From contig JAFGMR010000064.1 in assembly GCA_016927425.1 (NCBI GenBank), positions 1 to 47,122 on the forward strand: a stretch of DNA of 47,122 bases, written 5' to 3'. Shown one piece after another: positions 2,084-34,912 of this stretch (position 1 is the stretch's first letter; each line of letters begins with the position of its first letter). The stretch is from Methanotrichaceae archaeon (GTDB lineage: Archaea; Halobacteriota; Methanosarcinia; Methanotrichales; Methanotrichaceae). The position numbers were made by a program, and so were the translations under genes. The notes under the pieces were generated by a model, which was given only the letters and a program-made list of their open reading frames with translations, was not told the DNA's origin and made no database searches.

Positions 2084-3748
2084 TCATATAAATAGGTATA
2101 AATCCAAAGCCCTGCGCTGATATTCCAGATGGATCTCTTCGCAGATCAATCCCTTTTCTCGGTAATCGGAAAGCATCTTGAGCTTTTTCTCTATTTCATA
2201 AGCTTCAGAATTATTTTTTGTTATCTTTCTGTTGGATGGACCTCTCCCAGGTGGCACTCCTCTTATGCCGCAAACTAACCTGTAGAATCCATCGTCGAGT
2301 TTTGAGTCATCCCTAAAATCAACCCAAGATCTATTATTCAGAAAATCCACAAGATGCTCAGGTTTCGATCCAGGCAAAAGCAATGGAATGACCCTAAAGG
2401 ACATTCTTTCTCCCGCCTGTATGTTTAAAGCACGCTGTATCTCCTCCTTCTGCCAACCAGATGGCTTTTCTTCACCTATGCAGACCACGCAGCTTTTTGA
2501 TTGATCCAAACCTCGAGCCAACTCATGTTGCCAAGAAGGATTGCCTGGTATCAAACTCCATTTATCTAACCACACTTCAAAGCCTTCTTCCTCATTTAGG
2601 CGACCTGCAATCTTTTCGACTTTTTCCGCAGAAGTGTGAGCATAGCTAATAAATACATCATATTTGATGCCAACAGAAATGTCGGTCTCAGGGATTTCGA
2701 TAGTTTGTTGATTTGCGTTCTCCCTCGATGCTCTTTTTTGGTAGTCAGATAGAGGAGGCAAATGGTCCGACGTTACTGAAAGCAAATGAAATTCAAAATT
2801 GCCTCCAGGGTGAGAATCCGTGTCTTCAATCCACTCATTTCGCGGATCACTCCAGCGACGTAAAAAAACCACAAGTTTTCCACTCTCGAAGTCTAAATGG
2901 ACAATATTGTAGGCATTAACATAAAAAGGATCTTCAACTTTGCGCCGATTGTAAGATCCGCCAGCAGGTATAACGGTACAATCACCAAGAGTACTTTTTA
3001 TAACTGTCGCTTGAGGCTTATGCTGATGGCCACACAAAATGAAGTCACACTGCCTCATTAGACGTCCCTCAACATGGTCACAGTCGAATTGAGCTAACCA
3101 GTCGAAGGGATGATGGAGAACCGCGATTTTAATATCTGAATTGGAGATCTCCTTTAGCGGATCGTGAATTTGCGATTCGCCCAAGAGCACAACTCCTCTA
3201 TCATTGTTAGCACTATTGCGTCCACACATCCACGCCGAATTAAGTCCAAGAAGAGCAATATTTTTTCCTCCGATTTGCCACTTGCGAATACTGGCGTAAT
3301 GGGGTTGCTCCTGGCCAGTGTAATTGGATACGAAGCTGGCGAACGCCTTAAATGGCCTCAGAAGCAGCGATCTTTCTTCGTCGTTGATCAACCATCTTTG
3401 AACCTCTGAATCTGATCCCAAGGGCTTTAAGAGAGCTGCGGGAAGCAGCTCGAATGTAGTTCTATCCAGATCGTGATTACCAGGGACTATGAAGAGCCTC
3501 TGTGGGATTACTCCAGCCGCTTTTAAAAGAGGGCCAAACAATTGCTCAGCAGCAGCCTCATACTCCTCAGCCTTACCACTATGGGCCACATCGCCGCTGA
3601 AGACGATGAAGTCTATCTCCGCCAGATCGGGGCTGATAACCACCCGCCTTTCGATATCATTGATCAGGGCGTCCCGCACCACCTGGCGGTCGAAGTCCTT
3701 GCCCTTCTGGTGCCAGTCCGACAGATGGAGCCAGGTCAGACCCCTCAT
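2084..3748 (-). CDS. Calcineurin-like metallophosphoesterase - TIR fusion protein
   Basis: The 554 residues have two domains and a tail. Residues 1-300 carry the full metallophosphoesterase metal-site set: D11/H13 (HLSDWH), D53 (SGDVAH), N91-H92-D93 (PGNHD), H212 (LHHP) and H241/H243 (CGHQH). Residues 361-480 are a TIR domain with the classic YDVFISYAH start, VWLDKW, and candidate catalytic Glu 435/436 in WQKEEI. Residues 517-550 look like a short SHOCT-type helical tail (EKGLICEEIHLEYQRR). The phosphoesterase probably cuts a nucleotide or nucleic acid and the TIR probably acts on NAD+ or signals; both are inferred from families. The ATG overlaps the stop of the preceding small gene by 4 bp (ATGA), so translation is likely coupled. 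The central part is AT-richer than neighbouring core genes, which hints at transfer. Confidence 0.88.
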   Translation of the reverse strand: MRGLTWLHLSDWHQKGKDFDRQVVRDALINDIERRVVISPDLAEIDFIVFSGDVAHSGKAEEYEAAAEQLFGPLLKAAGVIPQRLFIVPGNHDLDRTTFELLPAALLKPLGSDSEVQRWLINDEERSLLLRPFKAFASFVSNYTGQEQPHYASIRKWQIGGKNIALLGLNSAWMCGRNSANNDRGVVLLGESQIHDPLKEISNSDIKIAVLHHPFDWLAQFDCDHVEGRLMRQCDFILCGHQHKPQATVIKSTLGDCTVIPAGGSYNRRKVEDPFYVNAYNIVHLDFESGKLVVFLRRWSDPRNEWIEDTDSHPGGNFEFHLLSVTSDHLPPLSDYQKRASRENANQQTIEIPETDISVGIKYDVFISYAHTSAEKVEKIAGRLNEEEGFEVWLDKWSLIPGNPSWQHELARGLDQSKSCVVCIGEEKPSGWQKEEIQRALNIQAGERMSFRVIPLLLPGSKPEHLVDFLNNRSWVDFRDDSKLDDGFYRLVCGIRGVPPGRGPSNRKITKNNSEAYEIEKKLKMLSDYREKGLICEEIHLEYQRRALDLYLFI

Positions 3749-28318: not shown

Positions 28319-29578
28319 TTAGCTCAGGCTGCCCCCCCTCATCACGCCGTACGTCTCACCCATAAGAATGTGGTCACCTGAAGTCGCAGTCATTTCAAAC
28401 CCTGCGCTTTCCTGGAAGAGCATAACGAAATCAGACCCTCCAAACAGGAAATTCCCGAGCATGTCGCCCTTCTCATGAGTGGATCCCACCACAACATCCT
28501 CTTCAAAATTGACAGAAGAGACCTGCGCCATACCCATTGGAATTAGTGCCACTAGCCCATATCTTCCCGTATCCACTATTACATAACCACGGGTCTGAGA
28601 AAACTGCCAACCTGTCGAATCTATTGGATCATAATTGCCTTGTTCTGCGTCCCACGCCACCTCTAAAGCAACATTTTGCAATACGAGCTCTTTTTCTTTA
28701 ATTGTCCCGCCAACCGCAAAATGATAACGATGGTAGTCATTTACATTCAGGAAGGAGTGGGTGAGTACGCCATTGGCAAAGGCGTCCTTGTACGGACTGT
28801 CCTTCCCAAGCAGATCAGAGATATTGTAATAGCGCACGAGTTTGACTCCCAACCCGTCTTCTACCTGGATGCTTGAATTGTTATCAATTGCCCATGTTCC
28901 CTGAGGGACGGAATCAGCCGGTGAAACAACGACTGCCGAATCGTTAGGCGAAGCGATAGGCCGCGCATCAGGCGATTTTAGGTATCTGGAGAAAAATTGA
29001 TTAAATGTATTCCAGTTAGATGGGGACTCATACCAATCATTCTGCAAACCGTAGCGCGGGTCGTTATAAAACTCCTGATAAGTCATTTGGTTCCATGAAT
29101 CTTCGGTATCAAGGAACGCTCCCCATGCATTGGAGAAATTGAGCAACCATGGGGAAAAAGGTTCGTAGTACTGAATCGCATTCTTGTATAGGCTTTTATC
29201 TTCTAATTCGGGAAGAGGTTGGTCAAGCAGAAAATAAAAGTAACAGATACTTTGCAATATTTCGTCACGTGTGAGATTGGACGGATTCTCAATTACATCG
29301 CGTGGGATGAGTTCTGATGCACTGTCTATGAAATCATAGTAGTCCGACAAGCTCTGAACAGGATTCGTCGTTGGGTCGGGATTAATTTCCTTGGCTTCTG
29401 CGATCGATTTTTCCAACATGTCTTGGATTTCCGGATTCGTCTCCACTAAATCTATGAGATCTCTAGTAATCGGCTTGTGACCGTCGTCCGCTAGTGAAAC
29501 GATGCTTAAGGAAACGATCGATGCTGCAAATATTATCAATGCAAAAAAAAAGTTTATCTTATAAGTAGCTCTTTTCAT
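28319..29578 (-). CDS. Secreted phosphatidylserine decarboxylase-like protein
   Basis: 419 residues from the ATG at 29578, which has AGGAG 9 bp upstream; the ATG 9 bp earlier overlaps that site. A signal sequence (FFALIIFAASIVSLSIVSLA) comes first. A W/F-rich domain near 140-185 recalls the PSD-associated domain (PWLLNFSNAWGAFLDTEDSW). The decarboxylase core follows: FNQFFSRYLKSPDARPI, VVSPADSV, DYHRYHFAVGG, then the self-cleavage region GNFLFGGSDFVMLF, where Ser after GG would give the pyruvoyl group. In normal PSDs this is (F)G(G)ST. The family makes phosphatidylethanolamine or decarboxylates other substrates; here the substrate is unknown. The gene is clearly AT-richer than all neighbours and uses different codons, so it was probably acquired by transfer. 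No phosphatidylserine synthase is next to it. Confidence 0.75.
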   Translation of the reverse strand: MKRATYKINFFFALIIFAASIVSLSIVSLADDGHKPITRDLIDLVETNPEIQDMLEKSIAEAKEINPDPTTNPVQSLSDYYDFIDSASELIPRDVIENPSNLTRDEILQSICYFYFLLDQPLPELEDKSLYKNAIQYYEPFSPWLLNFSNAWGAFLDTEDSWNQMTYQEFYNDPRYGLQNDWYESPSNWNTFNQFFSRYLKSPDARPIASPNDSAVVVSPADSVPQGTWAIDNNSSIQVEDGLGVKLVRYYNISDLLGKDSPYKDAFANGVLTHSFLNVNDYHRYHFAVGGTIKEKELVLQNVALEVAWDAEQGNYDPIDSTGWQFSQTRGYVIVDTGRYGLVALIPMGMAQVSSVNFEEDVVVGSTHEKGDMLGNFLFGGSDFVMLFQESAGFEMTATSGDHILMGETYGVMRGGSLS

Positions 29579-29587
29579 ATATTTCAT

Positions 29588-29951
29588 CTCCTGATTCGTT
29601 AACTCTCATGTCTGGCACTAAATATTGGGCACTAAGGGTATATGTTAACTTCCCAACCTTATTTAGTTTTCCCTTTGGATGATGTTGCCGATATTCCGGA
29701 TTAATGTCTAGTCAAGAATCAATATGTTTAAATTCTAATTTATCACAATATGTTATTATCTCATGCAATAATGTGCAATTACAGAGTCCAGAATGTTTGG
29801 ACTTGATATATGCCATGCCTCCATTTTTAAATTTTTTCTATGGCATTTAATTCAGTCCCCATTCGATCCAGGAACATTTTCAGCTTTCATCCCTCGGGCA
29901 GCCGGGCCCAGAATGCAGTATCTGGCGTCTGCATAAACCATTTCGCATGAA
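29588..29951. other. AT-rich intergenic stretch
   Basis: No gene supported. Base composition matches the AT-rich PSD-like gene rather than the GC-rich core, so this is probably the 5' flank of the acquired segment. Several AATTTATC/TATAT stretches could be promoters, but none has clear spacing. Confidence 0.4.
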
Positions 29952-30215
29952 CTATGTTTCACCAGATATAGTTTCTCGTCCATTGTGCAAGAACCCGCCA
30001 TAACAATCAATCCCCAGAGGTGGGATACGCGCAAGGCATGCTGCCATTAGCTCCTCCGGCTCGATCTGGTCGTAGATATCCGCCGCCCTCCTTCGGGCTT
30101 CTCCTTTGGGCTCCTTGATAAGCTCGCTATCCATCCCGGCGCTGTGCAGCGATCCAATGCTGGCAACAGTAGGGGTGGCCCGGTCCTCCAGCTTGTCTGA
30201 GTCAGTATCATGCAA
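29952..30215 (-). CDS. Small hypothetical protein, duplicated at 27669-27797
   Basis: 87 residues of no recognised family. The core ARRRAADIYDQIEPEELMAA followed by CLARIPPLGIDCYG is preserved in the truncated sister at 27669-27797 with synonymous changes, which suggests that the protein was once selected. Upstream residues (SIGSLHSAGMDSELIKEPKG) are partly shared. An internal ATG at 30134 gives a 60-residue form that matches the sister's start. It may be the end of a longer lost protein. The coding call is weak. Confidence 0.35.
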   Translation of the reverse strand: MHDTDSDKLEDRATPTVASIGSLHSAGMDSELIKEPKGEARRRAADIYDQIEPEELMAACLARIPPLGIDCYGGFLHNGRETISGET

Positions 30216-32941: not shown

Positions 32942-34912
32942 TTAGGTCCTCACCGGCTCGGAGTAGAGCGCAGCCTGGGTGAGGGAATCGTCTGGATCGC
33001 TTCTCCTCTCACCGCGATTGAAGTAGGTGTACCCCTGAAGCGCTACGCGGAGCTCCTCTGCTATTCGCTCCGGATCCTCGATATCCCGCGCTGCAATGCT
33101 CCTTATGAACTCGTCCGTATCGTAGTTGAAGAACCGAAGGAGCTTGTCGCATGTATCGCCGGGGATCGTGTTGCAGATGCGCCAATTCCCCTCATCCACC
33201 ACGATATGGACCTCGTTTACGCAGCCGAGCAGGTTATGGAAATCGCCGAGGGTGTCCTGGTATGCCCCAAGGAGGAATATGCCCATGTAATAGTCCCCGT
33301 CGAGGTTGTGCATCTCAAGGCATTCCCTGGGCCCCCGCAGGCCTCCAAAGCGCTTGATCTCTCCGTCCGAGTCACAGGTAATATCGGCGATGGTTCCAGC
33401 AACGCTCGGCATCTCCCTGTGGCGGTGAAGCGGCATTATAGGGAATATCTGCTCTACCCCCCACATGTCGGGGACCGACTGGAAGAGGGAGAAGTTTCCT
33501 ATGTACTTCTGGCTGACCAGGCGCTTGAGCTCCGCGAACTCGGGAGCAGGATCGCCCGCCTGCCTTGCAAGAGCTGCCGCCTTCTGGCAGACCATCCAGA
33601 AGAGCGTCTCCCCCTTGGCTCGCTCCTCGAGGCCGATGTTTCCCAGGTTGAAGGCACTGAAGAGCTCGCTCCTGAGCTGGACTGCATCGTGATAGTGCTC
33701 CTTGTAGTTCTCGATGTTGATAGTCTTGAAGGCGAAGTGGAGATCCTCAATCTGGAGGGAGTCTCCCTTATGGGGATAGGGCAGGTAAAGGGTTCTCGAG
33801 TTCTTCTTTCCTATCACCTTGAAGACCAGGAACGAGTGGTATGCGGAAATCGCCCTCCCGCTCTCGGAGACGATCGTTGGGCAGCTGACCCCCTCCTCCT
33901 GGCAGATCTTCTGGAGTGTATAGACCACGTCGTTCGAGTACTCGCGGAGATTGTAGTTCGCGCTAGAAGGCTCTGACGTGCGCGATCCGTCGTAGTCGAC
34001 GCTAAGACCGCCGCCAACGTTGAAGTACTCGACGTCTGCCACCTTCTTGATCTTTGCATAGACCCGGGCGGCCTCGTTCATCGCCTCCTTGATCCTGCGG
34101 ATGTCGGTTATCTGAGAGCCTATGTGGAAGTGGAGCATCTTCAGACGGTCTAGGTGGCCCTTTTCCGAGAGAATCCTTATGACCTCCAGGGTCTCGCCCG
34201 TGGATAGGCCGAACTTCGACGACTCGCCACCGGACTCGGCCCATCTCCCGCTTCCCTTAGAGAATAGCTTGACACGGATTCCTATCTGGGGCACCTTCCC
34301 ATCGGAATGCTCGAGGATGTCGAGGAGCTCCTCGAAGAGGTCGACGACAACGATGATGTTGTTCATCCCCTGGAAGCTCGTCGCAAGCTTCAGGTATCCC
34401 TCGTCCTTGTAGCCGTTGCAAATGATGAGAGACTCCGGCGGAAGGTTCATCGAGAGGGCGCCGATCAGCTCTGCCTTTGTGCCGACCTCGATTCCCATGT
34501 TGTACTTTCGGCCATAGCGCAAGATGTACTCGATCACCTCTTTTCGCTGGTTGACCTTCATGGGAAAGACCGGCTGATATCTCCCGATGTATCTGAACTC
34601 GGATATCGACTCCTGGAATGCCCCGTTGATCTCATCGAGACGATCGTCTATTATCTGAGGGAACCGTAATAGTAGCGGAAACTGGACCTGGGCTGCCTCC
34701 AGCTCGCGGATTATGCCCATTACGTCCACCTCACTATCGGGATCCTTGCGGGGCTTTACAGTCAGATTGCCCGACTGGTTGATCGAGAAGTAGCCATTTC
34801 CCCACCGGTCCACGCGGTAGAGTTCGATTGAGTCGTCAACCTTCCACATGAGATCTTCTCCCGTCGCGACGTATCCGGCAGTAATAGCCATTGCCCCTAT
34901 TTCCCTCTCCAT
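32942..34912 (-). CDS. speA: Biosynthetic arginine decarboxylase (SpeA)
   Basis: 656 residues, the size of bacterial-type PLP arginine decarboxylases. PLP Lys is in FPMKVNQRKEV (~119). Further motifs: GVEVGTKAEL-like GIEVGTKAEL, HFHIGSQITDI, NVGGGLSVDYDGS, SESGRAIS and a late active-site segment ITCDSDGEI. It makes agmatine, the route to putrescine and spermidine. The start is either 34912, with GGAGAG close by, or the ATG at 34891. It is divergent from deoxyhypusine synthase, which uses spermidine, so the pair may be co-regulated. Most archaea use a pyruvoyl-type enzyme instead; the bacterial-type gene suggests ancient transfer. Confidence 0.94.
   Translation of the reverse strand: MEREIGAMAITAGYVATGEDLMWKVDDSIELYRVDRWGNGYFSINQSGNLTVKPRKDPDSEVDVMGIIRELEAAQVQFPLLLRFPQIIDDRLDEINGAFQESISEFRYIGRYQPVFPMKVNQRKEVIEYILRYGRKYNMGIEVGTKAELIGALSMNLPPESLIICNGYKDEGYLKLATSFQGMNNIIVVVDLFEELLDILEHSDGKVPQIGIRVKLFSKGSGRWAESGGESSKFGLSTGETLEVIRILSEKGHLDRLKMLHFHIGSQITDIRRIKEAMNEAARVYAKIKKVADVEYFNVGGGLSVDYDGSRTSEPSSANYNLREYSNDVVYTLQKICQEEGVSCPTIVSESGRAISAYHSFLVFKVIGKKNSRTLYLPYPHKGDSLQIEDLHFAFKTINIENYKEHYHDAVQLRSELFSAFNLGNIGLEERAKGETLFWMVCQKAAALARQAGDPAPEFAELKRLVSQKYIGNFSLFQSVPDMWGVEQIFPIMPLHRHREMPSVAGTIADITCDSDGEIKRFGGLRGPRECLEMHNLDGDYYMGIFLLGAYQDTLGDFHNLLGCVNEVHIVVDEGNWRICNTIPGDTCDKLLRFFNYDTDEFIRSIAARDIEDPERIAEELRVALQGYTYFNRGERRSDPDDSLTQAALYSEPVRT

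Follow-up and report, generated by a model that had tools for sequence, protein, structure and literature searches.

Within the phosphatidylserine decarboxylase (PSD) superfamily, the E. coli enzyme Psd (7cnw, 6l06) acts on a membrane lipid at the cytoplasmic face, carries three N-terminal amphipathic helices and has Thr after its cleavage Ser. Its D90/D142-H144-S254 machinery performs self-cleavage, H144 attends to the substrate carboxyl, and Y137 and S166 grip the lipid phosphate (PMC7952604). The superfamily also includes an amino-acid decarboxylase known from fungi, PsiD (PMC12603985), the PLP-independent L-tryptophan decarboxylase of Psilocybe (8x4q, 8zia), which combines a GGS self-cleavage site with an N-terminal helical domain, and an arginine decarboxylase of A. 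oryzae (9jer, 9jf5; named by the PDB titles), which belongs to the PsiD-type (PF12588) clade and uses a free amino acid as substrate. Another pyruvoyl enzyme, SpeD, has drifted to arginine and ornithine decarboxylation with horizontal spread (PMC10407285). The archaetidylserine decarboxylases (Asd) share the PF02666 domain of PSD but are only about 200-215 aa long, have a GSR cleavage site and lack the N-terminal domain. A literature search, mostly of open-access papers, returned no report of an exported bacterial or archaeal PSD branch. In prokaryotes, to our knowledge, both the decarboxylation of amino acids and PSD chemistry are assigned to the cytoplasm or the membrane.

The window analysed here, a stretch of 47,122 nucleotides from a Methanotrichaceae archaeon, contains a PSD-superfamily gene that probably departs from the lipid enzymes among them in both substrate and compartment. 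Judged from sequence, with a probability of roughly 0.6 for the statement as a whole, it encodes an exported pyruvoyl-dependent decarboxylase whose substrate is a small, water-soluble amino acid, or a compound closely derived from one, and not a phospholipid. The open reading frame spans 28319-29587 on the minus strand, as do all features of the gene given below, and specifies an intact proenzyme of 422 aa. A GGAG motif directly abuts the ATG at 29587 and precedes the ATG at 29578 by 9 nt; because of this spacing the latter is probably the true start, so that the coding sequence would be 28319-29578 (419 aa), exactly as delimited by the first-pass annotation. Residue numbers, which run to 422, are nevertheless counted from the ATG at 29587.

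Profile searches place the protein in the superfamily. PF02666 (PS_Dcarbxylase) matches residues 195-414 with E=5e-39, the catalytic beta-chain part (residues 191-384, 28436-29017) being delimited by this match together with the structural model. Ahead of it lies an N-terminal helical domain (residues 37-190, 29018-29479) of PsiD/PSDC-like character, as indicated by a match below cut-off to PF12588, the PsiD N-terminal domain PSDC (E=0.013, 16 of 23.4 bits), by a moderate profile match to PsiD-type N-domains (probability 64%) and by the span of the Foldseek alignments. The protein resembles PsiD-type enzymes in its whole-length fold, although it neither reaches the PF12588 cut-off nor falls inside the PsiD clade, and it shares only 16-18% identity with PsiD itself, which is fungal and without signal peptide. 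It has the domain and the Asp-His-Ser machinery of PSD, yet misses the NCBIfam PSD equivalog cut-offs widely (75 of 371, 62 of 112 and 58 of 307 bits) and lacks the phosphate residues; nor does it show the short length, GSR site or tree placement of Asd. What it does share, in full, are the features of a clade defined in this analysis and termed GGSD: GGS followed by Asp, together with His277, an SPAD motif and Asp284, as well as the signal peptide or lipobox of the exported members. In sequence comparison, a profile built from this clade alone places PsiD and the arginine decarboxylase ahead of E. coli PSD.

An alignment of 62 proteins allows residue-level comparison. Asp225 (28913-28915), Asp284, His286 and His289 (28721-28738) and Ser385 within the self-cleavage site Gly383-Gly384-Ser385-Asp386 (28430-28441) correspond to E. 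coli D90, D142, H144, H147 and S254 (GS254), which bears out the initial reading that the core PSD motifs and the GGS site are preserved. All five are kept wherever an exported homologue extends to the position (27 exported, one of them truncated before the Ser), and from these residues and the fold a self-cleaving pyruvoyl mechanism seems highly likely. The lipid-binding pair has fared differently. The Y137 equivalent is Phe279, a Phe in 27/27 exported homologues, and the S166 equivalent is Leu308, with Leu, Val, Ala or Ile across the homologues; none of the 27 has Tyr or Arg at the former position or Ser at the latter. The Asp after the cleavage Ser, which the first-pass annotation had flagged in place of Thr, is real but no oddity of this copy, being present in 26/26 exported and 3/3 cytosolic members with that position. 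Throughout the 30 members of the GGSD clade, cytosolic sisters included, Ser-Asp is invariant and always accompanied by the clade-specific His277; the other PSD groups sampled showed no His there. The PsiD-type relatives sampled instead have Glu for Asp225, Gln for His277 and Thr after the Ser, and the A. oryzae enzyme has NACES where the window protein has SPAD. Since His277 lies two residues before Phe279 (28751-28759 for the pair) within one predicted strand (274-280 in the model), it should face the pocket that accommodates the phosphate in PSD.

The predicted fold points in the same direction. An AlphaFold2 model (pLDDT 86.7, pTM 0.84) was computed from 42 aligned sequences of window and locus proteins, and in a Foldseek search of the PDB with this model, whose alignment contained PsiD-type rows, PsiD (8x4q, 8zia) and the A. 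oryzae arginine decarboxylase (9jer, 9jf5) took the first ranks (E 3e-13 to 1e-11). Their alignments cover 376-406 columns, the arginine decarboxylase reaching 406 columns at 19% identity, with TM-scores of 0.46-0.58 and rmsd above 5 A, values indicative of a shared fold with real differences. E. coli PSD ranks after them, over 263-273 columns that comprise the catalytic part only. Separately, a genome of the same archaeal class encodes a PsiD-type (PF12588-like) decarboxylase of 451 aa without signal peptide (L034 1447-2799, genome G344) whose sequence clearly matches that of the A. oryzae arginine decarboxylase (E 4e-80).

These features bear directly on whether the protein might still be a true serine-phospholipid decarboxylase, working on the outer face upon the cell's own archaetidylserine or the lipids of neighbouring bacteria. 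The retained PF02666 domain, Asp-His-Ser machinery and GGS site would suit such an enzyme, and its substrate is probably available: the genome's own normal Asd gene (G000:C59, L017) adjoins a CDP-alcohol phosphatidyltransferase gene, and for this reason serine phospholipids are probably present in this archaeon, made by a pathway that is cytoplasmic. The expectation that archaeal phosphatidylserine would not be met outside the cytoplasm thus stands as regards the site of the pathway, while an absence of such lipids from the organism is improbable. The lipid role in this genome is already covered by the normal Asd. Against an outer-face lipid enzyme speak the replaced Y137/S166 phosphate ligands, the PsiD-like domain in the position where E. 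coli PSD has amphipathic membrane helices, the closest solved relatives, which use free amino acids, and the scores below the PSD equivalog cut-offs; we regard it as unlikely. The earlier suggestion of activity on foreign lipids gained no support, whereas its companion, decarboxylation of another substrate, is supported by the lost Tyr/Ser phosphate pair, by the amino-acid decarboxylases that are its nearest solved structures and by two bacterial gene cassettes described below.

Export, the second departure, is predicted from the protein's N terminus. A Sec signal peptide, cut after Ala33 (SLA|DDG; 29489-29578), is recognisable by composition (hydrophobic core 2.88, n-region +4) in agreement with the original proposal; the model shows a helix at residues 7-27, at low confidence. 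Signal peptides are found on nearly all full-length members of the exported clade, with lipobox-like cysteines in Algoriphagus and Bacteroidales members; one Coriobacteriales copy shows no plain signal at the chosen start, and none was found in the cytosolic sister clade of the GGSD group. Nine Methanothrix copies carry 9-11 N-X-S/T sequons against 2.4-3.9 expected from shuffles (P <0.0005 to 0.007), although these copies are related and the counts are not independent, whereas the six nearest bacterial copies have 0-2. The window copy is intermediate, its 6 sequons against 3.1 expected not being a significant excess alone (P=0.08). A second set of exported PSD-like proteins in Methanothrix, the B-type paralogues, has 6-8 sequons against 2.4-2.7, with no excess in their bacterial relatives. 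This trend fits exposure to archaeal surface N-glycosylation, with sites gained in the Methanothrix copies, and together with the signal peptides it makes action outside the cytoplasm very probable.

A maximum-likelihood tree places the window protein inside a Methanotrichaceae clade (support 99/93), nested with sequences from Victivallaceae, Deltaproteobacteria, WOR-1, Atribacteria, Aerophobetes and Verrucomicrobia (100/99). Next out are Algoriphagus, other Bacteroidota and Coriobacteriales, which complete the exported clade (100/99), followed by the cytosolic GGSD group (100/96); the PsiD-type enzymes form the sister group of the whole GGSD superclade (98/94). Outside this superclade fall the canonical PSDs and, across a very long branch, the Asd proteins of archaea with that of the same genome among them, so that membership in the normal archaeal PSD is rejected. 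Apart from Methanotrichaceae, the exported clade was found mostly in bacteria. Among 345 genomes sampled evenly across the archaeal phylum, a whole-length match occurred only in the window's genome, three others giving weaker partial matches to more distant PSD-like proteins; within the family, matches were present in 11/50 genomes, one of them a remnant only. Acquisition by transfer from bacteria into Methanotrichaceae is the simplest reading of these distributions. As for vehicles, 61 pattern matches among viruses included no relative, and plasmids yielded nothing closer than distant proteins of 24-33% identity, several of which are PsiD-type. One Coriobacteriales genome (G392) holds two GGSD copies (L124 389-2017 and L125 65-1324), one beside a 5'-nucleotidase-like gene.

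The composition of the gene is likewise foreign, as first perceived. Measured against 213 open reading frames in 363 kb of the same genome, its GC is 0.449 (baseline 0.573+-0.036, z=-3.4), its GC3 0.479 (0.698, z=-3.3) and its codon-usage score z=-3.9, fifth lowest of the 213, which puts GC and codon use within the lowest 2-3% of sampled genes. An AT-rich intergenic stretch upstream (29588-30100, GC 0.427) is part of the same foreign-looking island. The first-pass annotation had named two observations that would count against it, grouping with the normal archaeal PSD and a composition at the genome mean, and neither was made; tree, composition, signal peptides or lipoboxes on most clade members, and the gain of sequons in Methanothrix concur in foreign origin combined with export. 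Because the GC of the window copy is far from that of its own genome yet near that of the Methanothrix copies (0.45-0.49), this copy looks to have entered its genome later than a gene ancestral to the whole family would have. It also branches outside the other Methanotrichaceae copies, and both can be true if the donor is unsampled. Elsewhere in the window, a gene for a calcineurin-like phosphoesterase-TIR fusion (2087-3748, minus strand) also has low GC (0.46) and is one of the most extreme outliers in codon usage; it may function in defence.

A divergent composition, together with the short MAG contigs on which some bacterial relatives reside, would also be expected had a bacterial contig been binned into an archaeal genome. 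We consider such an assembly or binning artefact scarcely credible, for the gene is embedded in a 47-kb contig, with thermosome genes on one side and TiaS/arginine decarboxylase genes on the other, and a copy or remnant occurs in ten more Methanotrichaceae genomes; the copies included in the tree group as a single clade (99/93). A different objection is that the acquisition is decaying or useless in this genome. Its composition is unadjusted and its presence in the family patchy, and a Methanothrix-like genome (G027) bears a deletion scar (L150 4435-4950) in which both flanks persist at 90-97% identity and the gene's 3' end remains, while about 1.28 kb of the gene is gone. The gene has thus been lost again in at least one member of the Methanotrichaceae, and probably in many. 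The window copy, by contrast, retains a full-length frame and every invariant residue at 47-78% identity to other members, and the sequons gained in Methanothrix imply use; decay here is very unlikely.

Gene neighbourhoods offer the remaining clue to the substrate. Around the window copy are a MarR-like regulator and thermosome genes on one side and TiaS on the other, with a PLP-dependent SpeA-type arginine decarboxylase at 32942-34912 (minus strand) in a genome in which no pyruvoyl-dependent counterpart (PvlArgDC) was found; SpeA, TiaS and thermosome look unrelated to the decarboxylase. No arginine or asparagine cassette was seen in this archaeon, no PanD was found in its genome, so that nothing links the gene to PanD, and the only RNA genes in the window are two tRNA-Arg. 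On the longer Methanothrix contigs the gene usually adjoins a TPR protein gene, a CTP-dependent riboflavin kinase frequently flanks it opposite the TPR gene, no amino-acid genes lie around it, and the Algoriphagus, Coriobacteriales, other Bacteroidota and Desulfobacterota loci lack a conserved operon. Most copies, then, stand alone.

The exceptions are two close bacterial relatives, each from a MAG. On a 192-kb WOR-1 contig (L007) the order is PvlArgDC (PF01862, from about 2634 to 3258, with signal peptide), an exported B-type PSD-like gene, a C-terminal glutaminase fragment (PF04960, E 3e-41), a type II asparaginase with signal peptide, the window type and a PF13557 protein. The Verrucomicrobia locus (L008) reads PvlArgDC (PF01862, about 180-851, 66% identical to the WOR-1 copy, with one in-frame stop between signal peptide and mature part), an asparaginase-like N-terminal fragment (some 20 residues, recognised by eye and missed by Pfam), the exported B type and the window type. 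PvlArgDC, B-type and window-type (A) proteins of the cassette all bear signal peptides, which ties the family, by sequence annotation, to exported amino-acid chemistry in two of its closest bacterial relatives.

The B-type proteins that partner the window type in both loci (L029-L031; L007 3209-4390) are likewise exported, full-length pyruvoyl proenzymes of the PSD superfamily, but are only about 25-33% identical to it, have a GGSL/GGSS site and form a separate clade (99/95). In Methanothrix this second exported family, of GGSL type (L151 4878-6125, L152 5067-6317, L153 8228-9436), adjoins a gene for a 917-aa molybdopterin (formate-dehydrogenase-like) oxidoreductase, with a 308-aa protein containing a DHODB-type Fe-S binding domain nearby in 2/3 genomes.

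The substrate could also be another extracellular amino-acid head, such as a peptide end, a modified amino acid or a cell-wall or glycan-linked serine or aspartate. Export is conserved and no substrate-specific partner is, and one genome of this archaeal class has a B-type gene, without signal peptide, next to a serine carboxypeptidase gene (PF00450; L154 5430-8079). The solved relatives nonetheless act on free amino acids, and the only shared cassette consists of free amino-acid enzymes, which leaves this a minority option, some way behind the free amino acid or close derivative that we prefer on the strength of the lost phosphate ligands, the nearest solved relatives and the cassette. As to which amino acid, the relatives use Trp and Arg, and the cassette suggests Arg, Asp or Glu.

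For this preferred reading, a mechanism can be proposed from the residues and the fold. The proenzyme would be exported by the Sec route and its signal peptide removed; Ser385, helped by His286 and Asp225/Asp284, would then attack the Gly384-Ser385 bond, yielding a beta chain (approximately residues 34-384) and, by homology to PSD cleavage, a 38-residue alpha chain (residues 385-422, 28322-28435) beginning with the predicted pyruvoyl group at Ser385. The amino group of the substrate would form a Schiff base with the pyruvoyl while His286, by a role parallel to carboxylate recognition in PSD, positions the carboxylate. CO2 would leave and the amine would be released outside the membrane. His277 and Asp386, predicted to sit where the lipid phosphate would lie, probably set specificity.

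More tentatively, and with the odds against it, the data may reflect a mobile kit for extracytoplasmic decarboxylation that circulates among anaerobe phyla, consisting of unrelated pyruvoyl enzymes with signal peptides (arginine decarboxylase and two kinds of PSD-derived amino-acid decarboxylase) and asparaginase/glutaminase, from which an acetate-using methanogen family would have taken two parts, sugar-coated them at the surface and so come to make amines outside the cell. What an acetate-using methanogen would gain from such an enzyme is a matter of speculation, with amine supply, local pH and nitrogen scavenging as candidates.

The family would add another pyruvoyl scaffold to those that have changed substrate, after PsiD, the A. 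oryzae arginine decarboxylase and the SpeD-derived arginine and ornithine decarboxylases; in this case a change of compartment and a bacterial-to-archaeal transfer would come with it. The genes of this branch, for which a database annotation as phosphatidylserine decarboxylase is to be expected, probably encode enzymes that do not touch lipids, and its conserved export would mean that amines and CO2 are made at the cell surface.
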